In this document: in pieces, positions 3,464 through 44,355 of the stretch
Layout: each line of letters opens with the position of its first letter
Numbering within the stretch: the first letter of the stretch is position 1
Assembly (NCBI GenBank): GCA_016946835.1
Contig: JACVTC010000110.1
Location: 592,501-638,468, forward strand
Direction: 5' to 3'
Length of the DNA: 45,968 bases
Origin: Neocallimastix lanati (nom. inval.)
Lineage: Eukaryota; Neocallimastigomycota; Neocallimastigomycetes; Neocallimastigales; Neocallimastigaceae
Notes under the pieces: generated by a model
The model's input: only the letters and a program-made list of their open reading frames with translations
Database searches by the model: none
What the model was told of the DNA's origin: nothing
Position numbers and translations under genes: made by a program

Positions 3464-4906
3464 ATGAGTGAAAAAGGAGAATCAGATAATAGTGGATTTA
3501 ACAAACTTAACTGGTTCACCAGAATCGGTTATGGTTTAGGTGATTGTGCACAAAATTTAATTTACCAAGTTGTTGCAGGTTACTGTGCTTTCTTCTATTC
3601 TGATGTATATATTGTTGGTAATAATACGAAGGAATCTTCATCTATTGCTGGTACCATTATGACAACAGCTCGTATTATTGATGTCATTTGGGATCCATTT
3701 GTTGGTGCCTTTGTTGATAAGCACAATCCACGTTTAGGTAAATACAGAACTTATTTACTTGCTTGTGGTCTTCCATTAACTATTGGTTGTATTCTTGTTT
3801 TCTGTCCATTCGATTTCCTTAGAGGTAGTATTATCTACGCAGCTGTTACTTATGTTCTTCTTCAAATGTTATACACTTGTGTCAATGTTCCATACGGTGC
3901 TTTAAATGCTTCATTAACAAGAGATACTCATGAAATTACTATGCTTACCTCCATTCGTATGGTTTGTGCTAATATTGGTGGTTTCTTCGTCTGGACACTT
4001 ATTCCAATTTTCCTTGGTTTAGCCGCCGGAAAAGCCATTCCATGGGGATTCGTATTCTTCCAATTTGTTGGTAGTATTCCAGGTATTCTCTTCATGCCAT
4101 TTGTTCCAGCTGTTAAGAAGGTTGTTGGTAAGAAGAACATGTTCTATCTCTTCGGTACTATTGCCATTATTGGTAACATCATGATCTATATTGTTAGTAA
4201 GAGTGGTGTTAATTCTGGTGATAACACTTGGATGCGTATTGCTAACTTTGTTAAGTCTACCGGTTTCACCATTATTACTGGTTACATGTGGGCTATTGTT
4301 CCAGAAGTTATTTCCTATGCTGAATACACTACTGGTCGTCGTATTGCAGGTATTGTTAATGCCCTTACTGGTATGTTCTACAAGTTAGGTAATGCTCTTG
4401 GTGGTATTATTCCACTTTATGGTCTTCGTATTCTTGGTTATATTGCGGGTGAAGAAGAACCAAGTTCTCTTACCAAGGAACCAAAAGCCTGGTTTACTGT
4501 CATGTCCATTTATAATATTGTTGGTTTAGTCCTTCTTATTACTTGTTTCTTCGCTTCTAAGGAACGTATTGCTATGGAAGAGAAAGAAACTAAGAACGTC
4601 AAGGTTACTGATTTATTTACAGAATTTGTTCGTAACGGACCATTACGTATTATTGCTTTATACTTCGTTACTGCTTTCACTTGTATGACTACTCAAAACA
4701 CTATTAACAGTTACCTCTTTGGTATGAGCAACCAAAAAGCAGGTACTCAAGAAGGTATTCGTTGGTTAGCTTCTTTAATTCCAGCTATTTTCAATGTTGT
4801 TATGATTATCATTATCTTCTTCTACTCTTTAACTGATGAAAAGATTGATGAAATCAACAGAGAAATTGAAAGACGTCACAAGGCCTCCAATGCTGAAGAA
4901 GCTTAA
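3464..4906 (+). CDS. GPH/MelB-type sugar:cation symporter, permuted helix order (copy 1)
   Basis: A 480-residue, about 12-helix membrane protein of the glycoside-pentoside-hexuronide:cation symporter family (MFS_2, MelB/XylP/UidB type), expected to couple sugar uptake to Na+ or H+ at a membrane. Residues 20-185 match canonical TM1-5: YGLGD (23-27), RIIDVIWDP with D73 and D77 at MelB D55/D59, and NVPYGAL (141-147). The rest is out of order. Residues 192-340 resemble TM8-11 (VGSIPGI, VGKK at 221-224, ISYAEYTTGRR, K307 at MelB K377). Residues 342-426 resemble TM6, the central loop (FFASKERI) and TM7. Residues 429-480 resemble TM12 and the tail (FFYSLTDEKIDEI). The positions of MelB D19 and D124 are Asn here (N31, N141), so melibiose is unlikely; the substrate is unknown. 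There are no introns. The start is supported by the conserved leader and by agreement among four copies. The family call is firm; function despite permutation is inferred from conservation. Confidence 0.9.
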   Translation: MSEKGESDNSGFNKLNWFTRIGYGLGDCAQNLIYQVVAGYCAFFYSDVYIVGNNTKESSSIAGTIMTTARIIDVIWDPFVGAFVDKHNPRLGKYRTYLLACGLPLTIGCILVFCPFDFLRGSIIYAAVTYVLLQMLYTCVNVPYGALNASLTRDTHEITMLTSIRMVCANIGGFFVWTLIPIFLGLAAGKAIPWGFVFFQFVGSIPGILFMPFVPAVKKVVGKKNMFYLFGTIAIIGNIMIYIVSKSGVNSGDNTWMRIANFVKSTGFTIITGYMWAIVPEVISYAEYTTGRRIAGIVNALTGMFYKLGNALGGIIPLYGLRILGYIAGEEEPSSLTKEPKAWFTVMSIYNIVGLVLLITCFFASKERIAMEEKETKNVKVTDLFTEFVRNGPLRIIALYFVTAFTCMTTQNTINSYLFGMSNQKAGTQEGIRWLASLIPAIFNVVMIIIIFFYSLTDEKIDEINREIERRHKASNAEEA

Positions 4907-5669: not shown

Positions 5670-5687
5670 TATTCTTAGTGAGGAATT

Positions 5688-7601
5688 GGTCCATATTACA
5701 ACTCAGTTTTCCTTAAAGCTAATCCTAAAACCCCTGGTTTGAGAGGACTCTTTATTGGTGTTCATTCTTCGTGCTCTTTCTTCCAAGAACCGTTTTTATA
5801 CAAATATATCATTTCAGTTAATATTACTTCTTTTTGGAATCAAAAATGTACTATTGGTAATATCTACTTCCCTCAAAGCAAATGGAAGGAAGCAAGACTA
5901 GTTGCTTTTGATGAACTCTCTCAATGGTTACGTTTTCACAATAGAAAAAATGTTCCGGCTGTCCTAGTTGGTGACTTTAACATGTCATTAAAGAAGATCA
6001 AAACATACATTTCAAATAATTTTCCTAATTGGTATATTGCTCCTTTATATGGTAATCAATTTACATATGCTAAAGGTACTAGATCATCTTGCATTGATCA
6101 TGTCATCTATAATGAGGCTTTGGCATCCCATATTAATAAAACCTCGGTTTGTACTTCGTTTTATGGTATTTCTGATCATAAACCTATTTTACTTTCTTGC
6201 AACAAAGTTCTCTCCGATGGTTTTATAAGGCCTACTAAAGTTTCTAAATGGTCAACTCATATTTGTAAAACAAAAAATTCAGATATTTTATCACATAATT
6301 ATTTTTCAATCCTAGAAAATGACCTTGATTCTCATTACAATTCGCTTACGGCTAATGAAATGGTAGAAAAATTTATCAATACAGCAAATAATATCGGGAA
6401 AGATATTAAGGCTTTTATTCCAACAAATTTAAAGGGCTCTGCTTTTCATTGTCCTTATTACATTAAAAAACTATCTCATGAAAAACATATTGCATTTCGG
6501 AATATTAAGCCTTACTTTAATTGTGAAAATGTTGATAATTACCTTGAACAATTTAATAAATATGAAAAACTTTGCAAATTAATCAAGAAAACTAAGAGTA
6601 AATTTCGTTCTGCTAGATTTAAAGCTAATATAGTAAAAATAGGTAATTATTTTTTGAATAAAGATTTCAAAAATGGTTGGAGATGTTTAAAGAAAATGGC
6701 TAAACCATCATATTCATCTACCTCCCTTACTTGCATTAAATCTAAGTTTGATCAAGATATTATCTCTCCTTCAAAGCAATTAGATAGATGGGCTGAATAT
6801 TATAAAGATCTTGCTTCGGATCCCTCAGGTCACAGCCTTAATCGTAATTACTGGAATCATGCTTTAAGGAATATTAGTCTTAGATCCACTACCTGGAAAA
6901 TAAATGGTCCTATTACGATTGAAGATATTAAAAAAACTATTTCATCGATGAAAAATAACAAAGCACCCGGCCCCGATGGTATTCCGATTGAATTCTACAA
7001 AGCTCTTTTTTGTAACGAAGAATTACTAGAATCACATCCTGCTGCTGGAAAGTGTCTAAAATTGATATTTAATAAAATATGGAATGGGTCATTTCCTAAA
7101 AAATGGAACTCAGCTTCTATTGTATCAATTCCTAAGAAGGGTGACCTATCAGATTGTAGTAATTATCGAGGTATTTCTCTCATTAACGTTGGACTAAAAA
7201 TCATTTCAAAAATTATAACAGATAGAATATCTACTTACGCACTCTCACACAATTTCATTAGACCTGAACAATTTGGATTTCGCAACCGCGAAGAATGCAT
7301 TAGTTTATTCATTTCCGTTAGAGAAATTTGTCAAAGAAGAAAATTCCAAGGAAAATTCACATATTTAGCTTTTTTAGATCTTAAAAAAGCTTATGATTCA
7401 GTTCCTATTTTTAACATTCTTACTAAATTATATCATTATGGAGTACGCGGTAAATGTTTTGATTTTCTATGTAATTTATATACTTCATCTAAAGCACGTG
7501 CTCGATTTGCTTCAATGTTATCAAATGAATTTCCTATTAAAAGAGGTGTTCGTCAAGGTTGTCCTTTATCTCCAATCTTATTCAATTTATTCATTCAATG
7601 A
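5688..7601 (+). pseudogene. LINE A endonuclease-RT reading frame, broken
   Basis: About 637 open residues from 5688 (first ATG at 5739). Counted from that ATG, endonuclease motifs are GDFN (78-81), SSCIDHV (116-122) and SDHKP (145-149). RT motifs are APGPDGIP (409-416), the IPKKGDL...NYRGISL fingers, PEQFGFR (509-515), motif A FLDLKKAYDSV with D547, and motif B RGVRQGCPLSP. The frame ends at TGA 7599-7601, where one extra base after TTATTCATT shifts the frame. The FADDVV motif C lies at about 7668 in another frame. The endonuclease lacks the SWNTNGWN and QET motifs seen in LINEs B and C. This is the longest open RT frame in the window. Confidence 0.9.
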
Positions 7602-9167
7602 TATACTAAATGACTGTGAAAAGTATGGTGTTAATGTTGGAAGAAAAAAGTGTTGTGGTGGACTCTTTGCTGATGATGTTGTTCTCATTGCTCCAAGTTC
7701 AAAAAAAAAAAAAAAAATTTAGAAAAATTACTAAAAAAAAAGGTACATAGATGGGCTAATTTAAATGAAAATGACTTTTGGTATTGAAAAATGTGCAACT
7801 ATGGTTATAAAAACCAATGAAACTTCCAAACTATAGTGACCCAACCTTCTATTTTTAGGAATGAATGCTATTCCTAAAGTTTCTAGTTATATTTATCTTG
7901 GTATTCCCTTTTCTGATGATCTCTTACTAGAACACATTATATCTCACATGCATTTTAAAGTTAGAAAATCTCTTCTTTCTTTTACTCATTTCTTCTCAAA
8001 TAAGCTTATCCCTATTGCATACAAGAAAAAAAGTTCTTCAATCCTTTGTTATTAGTAAAGTAATTTATTATTCTCCTTTTACTTGGTTCAAACAAATCTA
8101 GAACGGCCAGAATTCAAACATTAATTAATATACTGGTCTATTTTGGTGTATCGGCTCCTTCTCTAAAAATGGTAAAACAAGTTCAGAAGACAATGACTAT
8201 ATATTAGACATAATTCTACTATGAGTACTTATGCCATATCTCGAGATCTAAGCATTCCTCCTATTGCTGGTGTCTGCGCAGCCTTACAGATTAAATCTTT
8301 TTTGAAAAATGAAGTAAGTAAATCAAACTGTATTATAAAGGATCTTATTAAATCTAAATCTATTCCCAAAATGTATTATTATTCCTGGACTAAAGAAATC
8401 TAGAACACTGTATAAAAAAAAAATCAAAAAAAAAAAAAAAAAAATATAAATGTGAAAAATATGACTATATTTTAGGAACGTTACTGGAAATCAGTTTCCA
8501 AAAATTTCAAGGTATTAAAGGTCAACATTACGATTGTAATAAGTTCTCAAACAATAAAGCTATAAATTATGCTTAGCTTAAAAATATCCCCAATTCAACT
8601 TAGGGTTTTCGTGGATTATACGTTTACGCTGTGGTTGTAAATACAATACTACTATTGCTATTAAAATGGGTAGAGTTTCAGAAGATTGTCTCAAGTCTTG
8701 CCCCCTGTTGTGGCGAAGATAAACAATCTTTTTGAACATTGGATTTTTTAAATGCGATGCTCTTGCATCTTTTTAGATGGAAATTCTTTAAATTTCATCG
8801 CTGAATCTCTAATGTTTTATTCCTTAGGAAAGATTAAGAGTGTTTAATCTTCTTTTCTTCCTATGACTATATTTCTAATTTTGAAGATTATATATCAATC
8901 ATTATATATACTTGTTCCTTCTTGGTGGTGGGACTTTTAGTTTTAAATGAGCTACATTTCGATAGTGGGGAACAGAGAGACAATTAAATGAACTACTTTT
9001 CAAAGGTTCATCTGAGTCACCTGTTCCAAAAAAAATATGGGGCTTGGCGGAATTCTTAGCAAGTGCCATACCTATCATATTAGTAGTTCGTTTGAGCTAT
9101 TATTTGATAGGTATTGCAAAATACCAAACTTAATCCAAGAGCGTCGACGTCGTACTGATAAGGCATA
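7602..9167 (+). pseudogene. LINE A RT motif C, thumb, zinc knuckle and C-terminus (remnants)
   Basis: Frame-shifted pieces continue the polyprotein: GGLFADDVVLIAPSS near 7665, IPKVSSYIYLGIPF near 7873, an LSIPPIAGVCAA-type segment near 8251, a CPCC...FEHWIF..C zinc knuckle near 8700-8750 in two frames, and the basic QERRRRTDKA-like C-terminus near 9137. Two A-runs (7701-7717 and 8414-8444) interrupt the coding sense. The knuckle and basic tail are shared with LINEs B, C and D. No intact product is possible. Confidence 0.8.
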
Positions 9168-20829: not shown

Positions 20830-21079
20830 TGAGATTATTCATGGAATTGTTAAAAAAACACTATAATTAATATCGAAAATTACTTCATCATAAGAGTTAA
20901 TTACGATAACCACTCAGATTATTTAAAGATTTTTATTAATGATTAACAAAATACTTAACCTGTTAAAAGAATAAATTGGAAAATTTCATCAAGGATTCGT
21001 ACATATAGTAGTATTAGCCATGTTAGATCTGCATATCAATCTGAACCTACTATTCCAATTCCCAACTGTATTCTATATA

Positions 21080-23340
21080 CAAATCCTTCCTCAAATGCTG
21101 AATTCTTTAATTTCTGTACTAGTTGGAATATCAATGGTTGGAATGCTGAAAAACGTGATGGAATTACTTACTTCAACTTTATTTTCAAACCAATTTGTAT
21201 ATGTTTTCAAGAAGTCGGAAATAGTTCTTTCTTGGGTTCTTTTCTCCAATTCTTACCCCTTCCTGAACCATTATAATTCAGTGCTAAGACGCGCAGACGA
21301 GAAAACTCCAAGGTATGAGAGGTCTTTACATCGGCATACACTCTTCATGCCAGTTTACGAACGATCTCTTAGAATATAAGTATATCCTTTCGGTTAGTAT
21401 ATTTTCGTTTTGGGGTGTTAAATGTTATTTTAGGGAACATATAACATTCCTAGCAAGAAACATACGGATTCTAGAGATAAAGCAAAAAAAAAAAAAAAAA
21501 AAGATCTTGTTAATTGGCTCAAAAATCACCAAAACGTTCCTTCGGTAATTGTTGGTGATTTTAATGTGACCAAACAACAACTTCAAGACCTATTTTCATG
21601 GATATGATTGGACATCAGTTTACTTGGTCTAGTGGAGGTAAGAATTCATGTATTGACTTTATTGTTTTCAATGATAAGATGAGAGACTACTTGAACATCG
21701 CTTCTGTTTTGTAATTCCTTTAATGATATTTCTGATCATTTCCCGTTAATTCTTTCATGTAAGAAAACTTCTCCTGATGGATTCACTACAACCCTCTCCT
21801 AAAAAGAAAGTTAAATGGTTCCAACCGAGTATGTCGTACTAATCAAGAAACCATTTTTTCACATAACAGATTTTCTATTCTGTTAAATGAATTTGAAAAT
21901 AATAGAACTTTGGACTCCAACACTATGGTAAATAAATTTCTGGAAACTGCCAATAAAATTGGAGATGAAATACATGCAAGAGTACCCACAGATCATCAAG
22001 GTTCTGCATTCCATTGTCCTGGTTTCATTAAACAACTTTCACATGAGAAACATTCTATATACTATAGAATTAAAAACTTTGTTCTGGATGATGATCTTAC
22101 TAATCTTGATGAATTCTGTAAACTTTTAAAAGACTACAGGAAGTTCTCTAATAAATCCAAAAAAATTGAAGAAATTTATCAGAAAATGTAGATTTAGAAA
22201 CTCGATCCACTCAAATTGGTGACTGTTTTTTTAAATAATGATACACAACGAGGATGGTGATGGTCGCTTCTCAAGAAAATAACCAAACCTTCTTACTCTC
22301 CATCAAAATCCCCTATTTATATTAAGGATAAAGTAGGTCATGCAATCATTTCTCAAGATGGACAACTCAAACCGTTTTGCTGAACATTATAAAGAACTTG
22401 CTTCAGATATTACTGGTCATAGCCTAAATGAAAACTACTGGAGTAGACAATTCAACAACTCTTCTACATCGGAAACTTGGGATATTAATCAACCAATATC
22501 TATGTCTGATATCTATACTACACTACTGTTCTCTCAATGAAAAATAATAAAGCTCCTGGCCCTGATGGTATTCCTACGGAATTTTTTTAAAGCTTTCTTT
22601 GATTCTATAGCAATACCACTTCTGAACAGGCCAATTCAAATCAAGAAATCATTTATTCCAACTGTGCAAAAATGTTTATTATTACTTTTTAATAAAATTT
22701 GGGATGGTGATTTCCCGGAAGATTGGAATTTAGCTTCTCTTGCTTCCATTCCAAAGAAAGGAGATCTTTCAGACTGTAATAATTACCGTGGTATTTCACT
22801 TATTAATGTAGGATTAAAAATTCTGTCGAAAATTAAAATTGTCACTAAAAGAATTTCTGATTATGCACTACCTCATGGTGCTGTTCGACCAGAACAATTT
22901 GGATTCAGGAATAAAGAAGAATGTATTAGCTTATATATTTCAATTCGAGAAATATGTCAAAGAAGAAAATTTCAAGGTGAATTTACATACCTTGCTTTTC
23001 TTGACCTTAAGAAAGCATAATAACTCAGTTCCAATCTTCAACATTCTTACAAAGCTTAAAAATATCGGTATTCGTGGTAAATGTTTTCAATTCCTACAGA
23101 ACTTATATTTAACATCGAAAGCTCGTGCAAAATCTTAACGGAAATCTTTCAGATGAACTTCCAATTCATCATGGGGTTAGACAAGGATTGCCCATTATCA
23201 CCAATTTTATTTAATATATTTATTAATGATATACTAAAATAACTGTGAAGATTTAGGAGTGGATGTTGAGAATAGAAAATGTTGTGGAGGACTATTTGCT
23301 GATGATATTGTGTTAATGGCCCCTTCTAAGGATAATTTTT
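21080..23340 (+). pseudogene. LINE D endonuclease-RT coding remnant
   Basis: The endonuclease is split over three frames (GLYIGIHSSCQ at 21318, then an A-run 21484-21502, then NVPSVIVGDFN at 21533). The connector 21910-22191 is open for 93 residues. The RT piece 22565-23020 is open for 151 residues, spanning FNKIWDGDFPEDW, IPKKGDLSDCNNYRGISL and PEQFGFRNKEEC up to motif A, where an inserted base gives a stop just before the motif A DSV. Motif C FADDIV is intact in a later frame. Damage is mostly small indels, consistent with a fairly young copy. Confidence 0.82.
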
Positions 23341-23492
23341 CAATCACTTTTGAACAAAGCTCATGATTGGGGTGTTACTAATGAAATGTCCTTTGGAATC
23401 AGTAAATGCGCCACTTTAGTTGTTAAACCTATATATTTTTTGCCACACCTAGTGATTATGTTGATCCCATTTTCTTTCTTGGCATTCACAAA

Positions 23493-24733
23493 GTGCCGAA
23501 AACCAACCAATATACATATCTTGGGATACCTTTTAACGAATCTCTTGAGTTAAAACCTATCATTTCTACGATGAACAGTAAAATTAATCATGCGGTTAAT
23601 TCCTTTTATCGTTTCTTATCTAATAATAACGTTCCTTTTTATTTTAAAACTCGAATCTTAGTTTCCTTTGTTCTTAGTACAGTTCTCTACTACGCACCAT
23701 TATTTGGATCTAATAAAGCACATGTAAAGGAAGGCTCAATCAGCTTTTAATCGAGGATTATTTTGGAGTTTTGGCTTTAAAAGTAAATCTTCTAATACTA
23801 CAATTTACAGTATGTCAAAGGAATCTTAATATTCCTCCTATTGCAAGCTTTTGTGCTAATGCGATGATTCGTTGTTTTAACAAATGGAAATCATCTTCAT
23901 GTATCATTGCTCATTTGGTCAATAATATTCCCACTCTTTCACACTATTCTTGGACTAAAAAAGCACGCAGATTAAAAGAACATACCCATAGAGATAGAAG
24001 TGCTAAAGAAATAAAAAACTTTTATTGGGAAAATGACTTTTATAGAAGAACTCCAGCTATTAGATCAGTAAATTACAAAAAAATATAAATTTGAATCTAA
24101 AGAAAAGATAGATCGCCTTTCTCTTAAATATTCACAATTCTCATATGGATTTTTTTTTTTTTTTGGATTGGACGAATTAAATGTGGATTCAAATTTGATG
24201 TGAGAACTTACACTAAGAGTAAAAATGTATGGAATGAATGCCCAACATATTGTCCTTGCTGTAAAGAACAAAACAGTGTTCCCAGCTTCACTCATTGGAT
24301 TCATTCGTGCTCTAAATTTAATAAACTAAGAAAAAAATTCATTCCTTTTGTAGATCAACTTTTTATTAATCTTTCTGTTACTGCAGTTGCTCGAGGATTA
24401 AACATCCCTGACGACTCAGAGGAAGATTTTAAAGATAACATTAATTTTTACGTACGTACTGTGTCTCCTTCTTGGTGGAAATACAGTACAGTAATTGATA
24501 TCTTATCAATTAATCAGGGGAAGAGAGGGCCAATTTTGGGAAAATTTTTTGGAACATCAGAGGAAAGGTCTTCTCTCCCGATTCCTTATTTTGTGGGGCT
24601 TGCGGAATTCCTTACTTATGTTATGCCTGTTGTTCAAAGTGATTTTTTCACAATGATCGATGGGTATACCATAAGACCTACCGTTGTCAGGAGCGTCGAC
24701 ATCGAAATGATAAAGGCAAAGAAGAAATTCTGA
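23493..24733 (+). pseudogene. LINE D thumb, zinc knuckle and C-terminal domain
   Basis: Three long open pieces: 23493-23750 (YTYLGIPFNESLELKPI), 23771-24088 (LNIPPIASFCANAMIRCF, then YSWTKKARRLKEH) and 24200-24733 (177 residues). The last carries ECPTYCPCCKEQ, then F.HWIHSC, a C-x2-C...H...C knuckle typical of LINE C-termini, followed by a hydrophobic, Trp-rich domain (SPSWWKYST, LPIPYFVGLAEFLTYV) and a basic end VRSVDIEMIKAKKKF. A T-run (24150-24164) separates the second and third pieces. It is the best template for the family's C-terminus. Confidence 0.82.
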
Positions 24734-28054: not shown

Positions 28055-29497
28055 ATGAGTGAAAAAGGCGAATTAGATAATAGTGGATTTAACAAACTTA
28101 ACTGGTTCACCAGAATCGGTTATGGTTTAGGTGATTGTGCACAAAATTTAATTTACCAAGTTGTTGCAGGTTACTGTGCTTTCTTCTATTCTGATGTATA
28201 TATTGTTGGTAATAATACGAAGGAATCTTCATCTATTGCTGGTACAATTATGACAACAGCTCGTATTATTGATGTTATTTGGGATCCATTTGTTGGTGCC
28301 TTTGTTGATAAGCACAATCCACGTTTAGGTAAATACAGAACTTATTTACTTTTCTGTGGTCTTCCATTAACTATTGGTTGTATTCTTGTTTTCTGTCCAT
28401 TCGATTTCCTTAGAGGTAGTATTATCTACGCAGCTGTTACTTATGTTCTTCTTCAAATGTTATACACTTGTGTCAATGTTCCATACGGTGCTTTAAATGC
28501 TTCATTAACAAGAGATACTCATGAAATTACTATGCTTACCTCCATTCGTATGGTTTGTGCTAATATTGGTGGTTTCTTCGTCTGGACACTTATTCCAATT
28601 TTCCTTGGTTTAGCCGCCGGAAAAGCCATTCCATGGGGATTTGTATTCTTCCAATTTGTTGGTAGTATTCCAGGTATTCTCTTCATGCCATTTGTTCCAG
28701 CTGTTAAGAAGGTTGTTGGTAAGAAGAACATGTTCTATCTCTTCGGTACTATTGCCATTATTGGTAACATCATGATCTATATTGTTAGTAAGAGTGGTGT
28801 TAATTCTGGTGATAACACTTGGATGCGTATTGCTAACTTTGTTAAGTCTACCGGTTTCACCATTATTACTGGTTACATGTGGGCTATTGTTCCAGAAGTT
28901 ATTTCCTATGCTGAATACACTACTGGTCGTCGTATTGCAGGTATTGTTAATGCCCTTACTGGTATGTTCTACAAGTTAGGTAATGCTCTTGGTGGTATTA
29001 TTCCACTTTATGGTCTTCGTATTCTTGGTTATATTGCGGGTGAAGAAGAACCAAGTTCTCTTACCAAGGAACCAAAAGCCTGGTTTACTGTCATGTCCAT
29101 TTATAATATTGTTGGTTTAGTCCTTCTTCTTATTTGTTTCTTCGCTTCTAAGGAACGTATTGCTATGGAAGAGAAAGAAACTAAAAACGTCAAGGTTACA
29201 GATTTATTTACAGAATTTGTTCGTAACGGACCATTACGTATTATTGCTTTATACTTTGTTACTGCTTTCACTTGTATGACTACTCAAAACACTATTAACA
29301 GTTACCTCTTTGGTATGAGCAACCAAAAATCAGGTACTCAAGAAGGTATTCGTTGGTTAGCTTCTTTAATTCCAGCTATTTTCAATGTTCTTATGATTGT
29401 CATTATCTTCTTCTACAGTTTAACTGATGAAAAGATTGATGAAATCAACAGAGAAATTGAAAGACGTCAAAAGACCTCAAACGCTGAAGAAGCTTAA
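28055..29497 (+). CDS. GPH/MelB-type sugar:cation symporter, permuted helix order (copy 2)
   Basis: 480 residues, intact, with the same permuted block order as copy 1 (joints near K190, K341 and K425; 28622, 29075 and 29327). It differs from copy 1 at a handful of sites: L7 for S, F100 for A, LLLICFF for LLITCFF, S426 for A, FNVLMIVII for FNVVMIIII, and RRQKTSN for RRHKASN. Almost all other differences are silent, which points to selection on the protein or recent conversion. Cation-site D73/D77 and K307 are kept. Same expected role as copy 1, sugar uptake coupled to a cation gradient. Copy 3 shares this version of the C-terminus and the 3' flank. Confidence 0.9.
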   Translation: MSEKGELDNSGFNKLNWFTRIGYGLGDCAQNLIYQVVAGYCAFFYSDVYIVGNNTKESSSIAGTIMTTARIIDVIWDPFVGAFVDKHNPRLGKYRTYLLFCGLPLTIGCILVFCPFDFLRGSIIYAAVTYVLLQMLYTCVNVPYGALNASLTRDTHEITMLTSIRMVCANIGGFFVWTLIPIFLGLAAGKAIPWGFVFFQFVGSIPGILFMPFVPAVKKVVGKKNMFYLFGTIAIIGNIMIYIVSKSGVNSGDNTWMRIANFVKSTGFTIITGYMWAIVPEVISYAEYTTGRRIAGIVNALTGMFYKLGNALGGIIPLYGLRILGYIAGEEEPSSLTKEPKAWFTVMSIYNIVGLVLLLICFFASKERIAMEEKETKNVKVTDLFTEFVRNGPLRIIALYFVTAFTCMTTQNTINSYLFGMSNQKSGTQEGIRWLASLIPAIFNVLMIVIIFFYSLTDEKIDEINREIERRQKTSNAEEA

Positions 29498-31433: not shown

Positions 31434-32729
31434 AAATATTTTTATTTTATATTAATTTCTAACTCAATATGAATTTTTTATTAAAATAATTCTAAATAAA
31501 TATGTAATCTAATAAATTCCCCCTAAACTAAGTACTTAATATTATTATTACACCATTGATATTGGATGTATCTATGACATATTTTTATTTTATATTAATT
31601 TCTAACTCAATATGAATTTTTTATTAAAATAATTCTAAATAAATATGTAATCTAATAAATTCCCCCTAAACTAAGTACTTAATATTATTATTACACCATT
31701 GATATTGGATGTATCTATGACATATTTTTATTTTATATTAATTTCTAACTCAATATGAATTTTTTATTAAAATAATTCTAAATAAATATGTAATCTAATA
31801 AATTCCCCCTAAACTAAGTACTTAATATTATTATTACACCATTGATATTGGATGTATCTATGACATATTTTTATTTTATATTAATTTCTAACTCAATATG
31901 AATTTTTTATTAAAATAATTCTAAATAAATATGTAATCTAATAAATTCCCCCTAAACTAAGTACTTAATATTATTATTACACCATTGATATTGGATGTAT
32001 CTATGACATATTTTTATTTTATATTAATTTCTAACTCAATATGAATTTTTTATTAAAATAATTCTAAATAAATATGTAATCTAATAAATTCCCCCTAAAC
32101 TAAGTACTTAATATTATTATTACACCATTGATATTGGATGTATCTATGACATATTTTTATTTTATATTAATTTCTAACTCAATATGAATTTTTTATTAAA
32201 ATAATTCTAAATAAATATGTAATCTAATAAATTCCCCCTAAACTAAGTACTTAATATTATTATTACACCATTGATATTGGATGTATCTATGACATATTTT
32301 TATTTTATATTAATTTCTAACTCAATATGAATTTTTTATTAAAATAATTCTAAATAAATATGTAATCTAATAAATTCCCCCTAAACTAAGTACTTAATAT
32401 TATTATTACACCATTGATATTGGATGTATCTATGACATATTTTTATTTTATATTAATTTCTAACTCAATATGAATTTTTTATTAAAATAATTCTAAATAA
32501 ATATGTAATCTAATAAATTCCCCCTAAACTAAGTACTTAATATTATTATTACACCATTGATATGATATTGGATGTATCTATGACATATTTTTATTTTATA
32601 TTAATTTCTAACTCAATATGAATTTTTTATTAAAATAATTCTAAATAAATATGTAATCTAATAAATTTCCCCTAAACTAAGTACTTAATATTATTATTAC
32701 ACCATTGATATTGGATGTATCTATGACAT
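31434..32729. repeat. 143-bp satellite, nine units
   Basis: Nine head-to-tail units; the TCCCCC landmark recurs at 31518, 31661, 31804, 31947, 32090, 32233, 32376 and 32519, with a variant at about 32667 after a 5-base insertion. Units 1-8 look identical or nearly so. On the minus strand each contains TTTAGGGGGAAT followed by TTATTAGA, resembling the polypurine-tract/LTR-start joint of the host element. No ORF. Confidence 0.95.
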
Positions 32730-37593: not shown

Positions 37594-37838
37594 TATAAAA
37601 AGAGTAAAAAATATCATAAATATTTTCAAAACCAAAAAATTATTAATTATTGAATAATTAATATAAATTTAAATTTAGGTTCAATAATTCGATATTAAAA
37701 AAAAAAAAAAGAAAGTTAAAAAAAAAAAAAAATTAAAGTTTATAAAAATCTATATTTCAATCAATCATTCAATTTTAAAAAAGCTCAAATTTTAATAAAA
37801 AAAAAATTAATTTAAATTAAGTTTATTTAATATCAACT
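37594..37838 (+). promoter_or_regulatory. Diverged promoter and longer leader of transporter copy 3
   Basis: TATAAAAAG at 37594-37602 sits 245 bases before the ATG, about twice the distance in the other copies. Only the last 45 bases or so of the leader are nearly identical to the others. The rest is recognisably related (TATAAAAAGAGTAAAAAATA) but diverged and has extra A-rich insertions. Confidence 0.55.
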
Positions 37839-39282
37839 ATGAGTGAAAAAGGCGAATTAGATAATAGTGGATTTAACAAACTTAACTGGTTCACCAGAAT
37901 CGGTTATGGTTTAGGTGATTGTGCACAAAATTTAATTTATCAAGTTGTTGCAGGTTACTGTGCTTTCTTCTATTCTGATGTATATATTGTTGGTAATAAT
38001 ACGAAGGAATCTTCATCTATTGCTGGTACAATTATGACAACAGCTCGTATTATTGATGTCATTTGGGATCCATTTGTTGGTGCCTTTGTTGATAAGCACA
38101 ATCCACGTTTAGGTAAATACAGAACTTATTTACTTTTCTGTGGTCTTCCATTAACTATTGGTTGTATTCTTGTTTTCTGTCCATTCGATTTCCTTAGAGG
38201 TAGTATTATCTACGCAGGCTGTTACTTATGTTCTTCTTCAAATGTTATACACTTGTGTCAATGTTCCATACGGTGCTTTGAATGCTTCATTAACAAGAGA
38301 TACTCATGAAATTACCATGCTTACCTCCATTCGTATGGTTTGTGCTAACATTGGTGGTTTCTTCGTCTGGACACTTATTCCAATTTTCCTTGGTTTAGCC
38401 GCCGGAAAAGCCATTCCATGGGGATTCGTATTCTTCCAATTTGTTGGTAGTATTCCAGGTATTCTCTTCATGCCATTTGTTCCAGCTGTTAAGAAGGTTG
38501 TTGGTAAGAAGAACATGTTCTATCTCTTCGGTACTATTGCCATTATTGGTAACATCATGATCTATATTGTTAGTAAGAGTGGTGTTAATTCTGGTGATAA
38601 CACTTGGATGCGTATTGCTAACTTTGTTAAGTCTACCGGTTTCACCATTATTACTGGTTACATGTGGGCTATTGTTCCAGAAGTTATTTCCTATGCTGAA
38701 TACACTACTGGTCGTCGTATTGCAGGTATTGTTAATGCCCTTACTGGTATGTTCTACAAGTTAGGTAATGCTCTTGGTGGTATTATTCCACTTTATGGTC
38801 TTCGTATTCTTGGTTATATTGCGGGTGAAGAAGAACCAAGTTCTCTTACCAAGGAACCAAAAGCCTGGTTTACTGTCATGTCCATTTATAATATTGTTGG
38901 TTTAGTCCTTCTTCTTATTTGTTTCTTCGCTTCTAAGGAACGTATTGCTATGGAAGAGAAAGAAACTAAAAACGTCAAGGTTACAGATTTATTTACAGAA
39001 TTTGTTCGTAACGGACCATTACGTATTATTGCTTTATACTTCGTTACTGCTTTCACTTGTATGACTACTCAAAACACTATTAACAGTTACCTCTTTGGTA
39101 TGAGCAACCAAAAATCAGGTACTCAAGAAGGTATTCGTTGGTTAGCTTCTTTAATTCCAGCTATTTTCAATGTTCTTATGATTGTCATTATCTTCTTCTA
39201 CAGTTTAACTGATGAAAAGATTGATGAAATCAACAGAGAAATTGAAAGACGTCAAAAGACCTCCAACGCTGAAGAAGCCTAA
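37839..39282 (+). pseudogene. GPH/MelB-type symporter copy 3, +1 frameshift
   Basis: Full-length relative of copy 2, with the same permuted order, residues F100 and S426, and the same 3' flank. An extra G in GCAGGCTG (38217-38218; the other copies read GCAGCTG) shifts the frame after about residue 126, giving a 156-residue product ending within TM4. The remaining 350 codons are otherwise intact and nearly free of amino-acid changes. It is therefore a very young pseudogene, or the extra base is an assembly error. Confidence 0.85.
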
Positions 39283-42913: not shown

Positions 42914-44355
42914 ATGAGTGAAAAAGGCGAATTAGATAATAGTGGATTTAACAAACTTAACTGGTTCACCAGAATCGGTTATGGTTTAGGTGATTGTGCA
43001 CAAAATTTAATTTATCAAGTTGTTGCAGGTTACTGTGCTTTCTTCTATTCTGATGTATATATTGTTGGTAATAATACGAAGGAATCTTCATCTATTGCTG
43101 GTACAATTATGACAACAGCTCGTATTATTGATGTCATTTGGGATCCATTTGTTGGTGCCTTGTTGATAAGCACAATCCACGTTTAGGTAAATACAGAACT
43201 TATTTACTTTTCTGTGGTCTTCCATTAACTATTGGTTGTATTCTTGTTTTCTGTCCATTCGAATTCCTTAGAGGTAGTATTATCTACGCAGCTGTTACTT
43301 ATGTTCTTCTTCAAATGTTATACACTTGTGTCAATGTTCCATACGGTGCTTTAAATGCTTCATTAACAAGAGATACTCATGAAATTACGATGCTTACCTC
43401 CATTCGTATGGTTTGTGCTAATATTGGTGGTTTCTTCGTCTGGACACTTATTCCAATTTTCCTTGGTTTAGCCGCCGGAAAAGCCATTCCATGGGGATTC
43501 GTATTCTTCCAATTTGTTGGTAGTATTCCAGGTATTCTCTTCATGCCATTTGTTCCAGCTGTTAAGAAGGTTGTTGGTAAGAAGAACATGTTCTATCTCT
43601 TCGGTACTATTGCCATTATTGGTAACATCATGATCTATATTGTTAGTAAGAGTGGTGTTAATTCTGGTGATAACACTTGGATGCGTATTGCTAACTTTGT
43701 TAAGTCTACCGGTTTCACCATTATTACTGGTTACATGTGGGCTATTGTTCCAGAAGTTATTTCCTATGCTGAATACACTACTGGTCGTCGTATTGCAGGT
43801 ATTGTTAATGCCCTTACTGGTATGTTCTACAAGTTAGGTAATGCTCTTGGTGGTATTATTCCACTTTATGGTCTTCGTATTCTTGGTTATATTGCGGGTG
43901 AAGAAGAACCAAGTTCTCTTACTAAGGAACCAAAAGCCTGGTTTACTGTCATGTCCATTTATAATATTGTTGGTTTAGTCCTTCTTATTACTTGTTTCTT
44001 CGCTTCTAAGGAACGTATTGCTATGGAAGAGAAAGAAACTAAGAACGTCAAGGTTACAGATTTATTTACAGAATTTGTTCGTAACGGACCATTACGTATT
44101 ATTGCTTTATACTTCGTTACTGCTTTCACTTGTATGACTACTCAAAACACTATTAACAGTTACCTCTTTGGTATGAGCAACCAAAAAGCAGGTACTCAAG
44201 AAGGTATTCGTTGGTTAGCTTCTTTAATTCCAGCTATTTTCAATGTTGTTATGATTATCATTATCTTCTTCTACTCTTTAACTGATGAAAAGATTGATGA
44301 AATCAACAGAGAAATTGAAAGACGTCACAAGGCCTCCAACGCTGAAGAAGCTTAA
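42914..44355 (+). pseudogene. GPH/MelB-type symporter copy 4, -1 frameshift, mosaic
   Basis: Full-length relative of the other copies with the same permuted order. One T is missing in GGTGCCTTGTTG (43160-43162; others have CCTTTG), shifting the frame near residue 84 and ending the product at 90 residues. Downstream codons are intact. The N-terminal part (L7, F100) is copy 2/3-like. The C-terminal part (LLITCFF, QKAGTQ, RRHKASN) and both distant flanks are copy 1-like, so it is a recombinant. D116 is Glu here (FEFLRG). The lost base lies in a short T-run, so an assembly error is possible. Confidence 0.85.

Follow-up and report, generated by a model that had tools for sequence, protein, structure and literature searches.

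A probable non-circularly permuted GPH-family sugar symporter in the gut fungus Neocallimastix lanati and its permuted relatives in bacteria

Sugar symporters of the GPH:cation symporter family (TIGR00792, MFS_2), such as MelB and YagG, share the fold of the major facilitator superfamily (MFS). In MelB-type proteins the transmembrane helices (TM) run in the order TM1-6, a cytoplasmic loop and TM7-12, and the cytoplasmic TM6-TM7 loop is the only link between the two halves of canonical MFS proteins. Here we describe a gene of the gut fungus Neocallimastix lanati, found at positions 3464-4906 on the forward strand of a 45,968-nucleotide stretch of genomic DNA (hereafter the window), whose predicted product resembles these symporters in its four block sequences, its cation-site Asp pair, its equivalents of Thr121 and Lys377 and its 12 helices. 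Unlike them, it carries TM6, the central loop and TM7 after TM11 instead of after TM5, and has Asn in place of the MelB ligands D19 and D124. We think it probable that the gene encodes a non-circularly permuted GPH cation:sugar symporter in which the MFS fold is re-formed and which imports xylo-oligosaccharides, and that the permuted gene is bacterial and was amplified in the fungus.

Membrane proteins with reordered segments have been described in other families. VKOR and DsbB are related by circular permutation, as described in PMC4555120; helix-pair modules are likewise re-threaded through a conserved membrane fold there, but that permutation is circular and links distant families, whereas the GPH case is a non-circular block exchange between groups averaging 66-76% identity by block (measured on every fourth protein). 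In the CPA/AT transporters, repeat shuffling separates the Mem_trans from the SBF-like families (PMC8396727). Segments were thus also shuffled during the evolution of those transporters, but there two repeats trade places and orientation flips, whereas here the blocks are unequal and orientation would be kept. The disputed mix-and-match hypothesis of permuted three-helix motifs, attributed to Madej et al. (2013), recounted in PMC4889909 and cited in PMC9440201, similarly allows MFS helices to be paired up in more than one order; it rests on a three-helix comparison, whereas the GPH swap is plain in alignable sequence and its units are four and two helices. The text of a survey of gut-fungal sugar transporters (PMC5168858) contains neither "GPH" nor "melibiose." No title or abstract on a permuted GPH transporter was found in the open-access library searched, outside which lie most subscription papers and all preprints. 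A preliminary description of this locus, made from its sequence alone, likewise knew of no GPH transporter built in this way; such sequences lie unremarked in databases, where colinear annotation overlooks them and the names on listed records, where present, are ordinary (e.g., Na+/melibiose symporter-like transporter, MFS transporter). If our reading is correct, the protein would be a clear natural major facilitator with its helices threaded in another order.

The gene is one intact frame of 480 amino acids, and its product exceeds the curated cut-offs of both family models, Pfam MFS_2 (255.9 bits; cut-off 27) and TIGR00792 (267.1 bits; cut-off 231.35), each score being summed over four stretches. 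The protein was divided, in its native order, into blocks A (TM1-5), B (TM8-11), C (TM6-loop-TM7) and D (TM12) and compared with a profile built from canonical relatives plus YagG and MelB of Escherichia coli (loci L081 and L082). Residues 4-190 of the window protein aligned with profile positions 4-182, residues 198-329 with 288-417, residues 334-419 with 190-275 and residues 422-473 with 419-470. No colinear full-length alignment (TM1-6, loop, TM7-12) to the canonical profile was found, the stretches running A-B-C-D. The parts of the gene are as follows.

3464-4033, forward strand: block A, TM1-TM5, residues 1-190, in its canonical place (profile 4-182, 227 bits)
4034-4054, forward strand: junction 1, extracellular linker from TM5 to TM8 (gap between profile stretches; loop 189-193 in the AlphaFold2 model)
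4055-4450, forward strand: block B, TM8-TM11, residues 198-329, canonically downstream of the central loop and TM7 (profile 288-417, 143.6 bits)
4451-4462, forward strand: junction 2, core of the extracellular linker from TM11 to TM6 (gap between profile stretches)
4463-4720, forward strand: block C, TM6, central cytoplasmic loop and TM7, residues 334-419, displaced 3' of block B (profile 190-275, 93.9 bits)
4721-4726, forward strand: junction 3, extracellular linker from TM7 to TM12 (gap between profile stretches)
4727-4903, forward strand: block D, TM12 and C-terminal tail, residues 422-480 (profile 419-470, 43.6 bits)

When all 24 joinings of the four blocks were scored, a single full-length match was obtained from A-C-B-D only (533.7 bits), a test that rules out MFS pseudo-symmetry as an imitation of the block swap. 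A-C-B-D was also the best-scoring order globally against YagG (446 vs. 287 for the native order), MelB (236 vs. 187) and a relative from Bacteroides, L021 (1150 vs. 773). The permutation is not circular, as A-B-C-D is no rotation of A-C-B-D. Against solved structures, the phmmer alignment with MelB was significant for residues 16-202 of the window protein only, and a profile of 88 permuted sequences had its sole significant stretch at positions 14-198. These comparisons establish the predicted polypeptide as a GPH-family (MFS_2, MelB-like) protein, non-circularly permuted to TM1-5, TM8-11, TM6-loop-TM7 and TM12. The preliminary description had placed residues 1-189 in canonical GPH order and proposed that a four-helix block was traded with a two-helix block, and both proposals are borne out by the profile stretches and, for the trade, by the 24-order test. 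The search for out-of-order matches that it suggested returned four such stretches with MFS_2, TIGR00792 and the canonical profile alike, and the colinear full-length match that it had named as evidence to the contrary was not found. Its breakpoints at 4031, 4484 and 4736 assigned the blocks correctly; their positions shift by about 5 to 35 bases, to 4034-4054, 4451-4462 and 4721-4726.

The window is part of contig C14 of a 199-Mb, 762-contig genome and holds four copies of the gene (loci L084, L088, L092 and L090), which all have the permuted block order, as had been claimed earlier. The other three copies are the following.

28055-29497, forward strand: copy 2, intact, same block order (480 amino acids, 98.1% identical; MFS_2 in four stretches)
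37839-39282, forward strand: copy 3, same order, frame interrupted by a single-base indel (overlapping frames 37821-38309 and 38155-39282)
42914-44355, forward strand: copy 4, same order, frame interrupted by a single-base indel (tblastn stretches 42914-43165 and 43159-44352)

The frame is open in copies 1 and 2 alone; between these two there are 10 silent and 12 replacement differences. Genome-wide there are 33 full-length copies, on C14, C555, C721, C4, C71, C58, C170, C220 and C135; three further C14 copies were matched without their 5' part, fragments account for 11 of the 47 matches, and the permuted order was found in all 30 fungal loci fetched. Two transporter clusters on C14 are inverted relative to each other (199063-264164, reverse strand; 595964-636852, forward strand, the cluster of the window). 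Each contains a copy that is split at an identical position, and the pair may reflect either a large inverted duplication or an assembly effect. Off C14 lie 26 full-length paralogues. Seven of them were compared (21 pairs), giving a nonsynonymous divergence (dN) of 0.002-0.013 and a synonymous divergence (dS) of 0.136-0.438; the differences are mainly silent, and strong purifying selection acts on these seven. Relatives that are 91 and 80% identical are named Neocallimastix californiae and Piromyces sp. E2, respectively.

Permuted homologues are also found in bacteria. A tblastn search of genome contigs confirmed 104 stretches, and among the best 80, which were kept, 16 are colinear with the window protein and 64 have the canonical order. 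The 16 permuted loci include those of Succinivibrio dextrinosolvens DSM 3072 (L003) and ACV-10 (L013), of Prevotellaceae and other Bacteroidales, and of a Succinatimonas and a verrucomicrobial metagenome-assembled genome. Architecture counts, which draw on the 120 best hits listed for each of three queries and are not to be taken as prevalences, comprise 273 permuted and 64 canonical proteins, four with a second TM6-TM7 block and three partial ones (n = 344, window protein included). With the permuted query L132, from the class of the verrucomicrobial genome, all 120 listed matches were permuted, the few named ones being Kiritimatiellae; L134 and L135, permuted loci of the same class, show one in-frame TAG within the matched stretch. 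Permuted queries matched 16 of 399 genomes drawn from the family of G001 (E-value limit 1e-150), 4 of 56 from the family of G003 (1e-130) and 7 of 240 from the class of G012 (1e-110), and because of these fractions we regard the permuted gene, as detected by sequence matching, as widespread yet uncommon. Every match from the drawn genomes that was fetched as a locus was permuted, L128 being without its end. Close canonical relatives were sought at 1e-70 in 193 genomes drawn from the class of G012, and in a second set of 247 genomes; only permuted genes were found in either. With a limit of 1e-35, the second set yielded additional canonical proteins, which were 28-32% identical. The preliminary statement that the order predates the array was hence right but understated, as the order is older than the fungus and present in bacteria. 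That it is an assembly or sequencing misjoin is scarcely conceivable and was rejected: many of the homologues are metagenomic, and four 14-helix chimeras (see below) could be misassemblies, but the same junctions recur at many separate places in the fungal genome, in the N. californiae and Piromyces records, and in both S. dextrinosolvens strains, Bacteroidales and Verrucomicrobiota.

Canonical and permuted bacterial-type proteins have a mean identity of 0.66-0.76 by block. The fetched flanks contain a GH43 relative at 16/16 permuted and 50/64 canonical loci and a GH10 relative at 9/16 and 47/64, respectively, in counts for which the queries came from permuted loci, self-matches were included and some flanks were short. 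Among the neighbours tested, Pfam confirmed GH10, GH43, GH67, GH115 and carbohydrate or GDSL esterases. By gene content, the canonical and permuted relatives occupy the same kind of GH10/GH43 xylan operon. In MelB, roles in galactoside binding are assigned to Lys18, Asp19, Asp124, Trp128 and Arg149 (PMC8329300). The window protein has Q30, N31, N141, G145 and M166 at these positions and thus lacks the melibiose-permease ligand set; its own residues there (Q, N, N, G and M) recur in 170/170 permuted and 127/127 canonical rows. Because the ligand-position residues are identical and the operons are of the same kind, we infer that both forms may carry similar xylan-derived oligosaccharides, and the bacterial operons suggest by analogy that the substrate is a xylo-oligosaccharide, possibly substituted. 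By profile alignment, the equivalents of the MelB cation-site residues D55, D59 and T121 and of Lys377 are D73, D77, T138 and K307. The D59, T121 and Y120 positions are kept in every row, permuted and canonical, and the D55 position in 169/170 permuted vs. 65/127 canonical rows. Asn stands at the Asp55 position in 62 of the 127 canonical rows and at the Arg52 position in 62 (e.g., L017 and L038); the Arg52 position is kept in 169/170 permuted rows.

These residues bear on whether the permuted gene is a non-transporting relic or serves as a sensor only. Two of the four window copies do have broken frames, but the conserved cation-site and Lys377 positions, the xylan enzymes nearby, the strong purifying selection among seven paralogues and the finding that 12 of 16 bacterial genomes searched have no match at E <= 1e-40 other than the permuted gene all argue against this explanation, which we hold to be quite unlikely. 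The suggestion in the preliminary description that the order is tolerated or useful gains support from the same selection and from the xylan-operon setting of the bacterial genes.

The AlphaFold2 model of the window protein (pLDDT 85.5) matches MelB over 354-362 residues, vs. 443-444 for the canonical control; the shortfall against the same four MelB entries is 82-89 residues, about the length of block C. The alignable part of this confidently predicted model, about ten helices' worth, matches MelB, which for that part of the prediction answers the earlier query whether the MFS fold re-forms. All three junctions are extracellular linkers, with 20-26 residues between the anchors used in the proteins compared. 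Because every breakpoint is such a linker between helices, we propose that each helix takes its usual MFS slot with its direction kept; moving a two-helix hairpin together with its cytoplasmic loop would preserve the direction of all helices. Loop charges broadly agree with the unchanged membrane sides assumed earlier, the weak spot being the TM11-TM6 linker, in which three K/R are offset by four D/E. The six-helix halves would be joined by three crossings, TM5-TM8 and TM11-TM6 outside and TM6-TM7 inside, instead of the canonical one, and transport may still proceed by rocker-switch alternating access. The most likely consequence would be a symporter that works as a normal rocker switch but is constrained on its outer side. 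Such a protein would open to testing the roles of insertion order, of co-translational folding of the halves and of the single interdomain linker in MFS folding and alternating access, with close canonical relatives from the same kind of operon as built-in controls.

Several observations weigh against a re-formed importer of xylo-oligosaccharides. The neighbours tested include two frames without a family, one of them by L016, and non-xylan neighbours of permuted genes include an amidohydrolase by L012 and a short-chain dehydrogenase by L003. The fungal genes are without such an operon, their substrate being carried over from bacterial relatives at ~51-55% identity. The slot of block C was deduced from the 82-89 residue shortfall, not placed directly. 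Finally, in mean-field couplings aimed at placing TM6 and TM7, the strongest partner of TM6 was TM12, then TM11 once the fungal rows were dropped, and the expected TM3 in neither case. A downstream TM6-TM7 hairpin that packs elsewhere, or is exchanged between two subunits, would fit the higher rank of TM11 and TM12. These data are too shallow (68 effective sequences, 47 without fungi), however, the TM12 signal is lost without the fungal rows, and both the match of the high-confidence model to MelB and the conservation of block C with canonical relatives count against an altered fold. We consider it improbable, though marginally less so than a relic or sensor, and favor the re-formed MFS fold.

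For the history of the gene, a tree of 71 rows was built after thinning at 90% identity. Eight fungal-type rows were kept, namely the window protein, two with fungal names or origin and five placed by sequence, and four of 12 flagged sequences (among 297) were left out (P0204, P0205, P0188 and P0201), P0204 having drawn canonical rows into the permuted clade in an earlier tree. A branch (96/97) sets the canonical proteins apart from all other rows. Within the bacterial permuted proteins, those of fungal type make up a clade (100/100). Because of this nesting, the fungus most likely acquired an already permuted gene from gut bacteria and then amplified it, so that a permuted nutrient transporter of bacterial type would now be present there in dozens of copies.

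With MelB and YagG as the only outgroups, branches were saturated and the fast-evolving fungal rows stayed next to the root. Seven outgroups at ~30% identity plus YagG placed the root among permuted rows without significance. When permuted rows from Verrucomicrobiota and Kiritimatiellae were added together with distant canonical outgroups, the best tree nested the canonical clade inside the permuted rows. Near-root branching was likewise unsettled in the per-block trees (A; C + B). That best tree would fit a history in which the permuted form is ancestral in the xylan-operon subfamily, the canonical order of Bacteroidales is a reversion and the order switched at least twice; so would the seemingly narrower range of close canonical relatives (0/193 genomes of the class of G012 at 1e-70, vs. 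permuted genes in 7/240). A single permuted clade is, however, not rejected (approximately unbiased test, p = 0.112), the outgroup branches are very long, and the canonical TM11-TM12 linker keeps the outgroup length and the pattern GF.A...VQ..A..GI, which is split in the permuted proteins. This resemblance to the outgroup linker favors the canonical order as ancestral, and we regard reversion as unlikely but worth serious consideration; the trees do not discriminate between one switch and a switch with reversion. Somewhat less likely still is the broader proposal that helix order is labile: a GPH symporter would have been permuted non-circularly, spread over at least three bacterial phyla and fungi and reverted to canonical order in Bacteroidales within the same operon; recombination of both forms would also give 14-helix A-C-B-C-D proteins, and the extra extracellular links would alter opening.

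Four proteins of 559-565 amino acids (P0035, P0040, P0050 and P0184) have the order A-C-B-C-D, with two TM6-TM7 blocks and 14 helices. P0040 and P0184 are nearest to canonical proteins (93-100%) over their 5' part, made up of A, the first C and the first half of B, and to permuted ones (94-100%) over the remainder. For A and the first C, P0035 and P0050 have each other as nearest match and canonical proteins next; most of their later segments are nearest to permuted proteins, the first half of B being again nearest to the other of the pair. With canonical-like 5' and mostly permuted-like 3' parts, these proteins are not supported as duplication intermediates; their sequences look like those of recombinants or assembly chimeras. 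P0204, P0205, P0188 and P0201 each match a protein of the opposite architecture at 99-100% identity over the first half of block A, which suggests either that permuted and canonical genes have exchanged sequence or that the assemblies are chimeric.

Between the transporter copies of the window, frames at 5682-7722 and 20959-24733 resemble, by eye, remnants of endonuclease/reverse transcriptase of the long interspersed nuclear element (LINE) type. A 143-base tandem repeat occupies 31436-32729, with nine copies and 99% matches.
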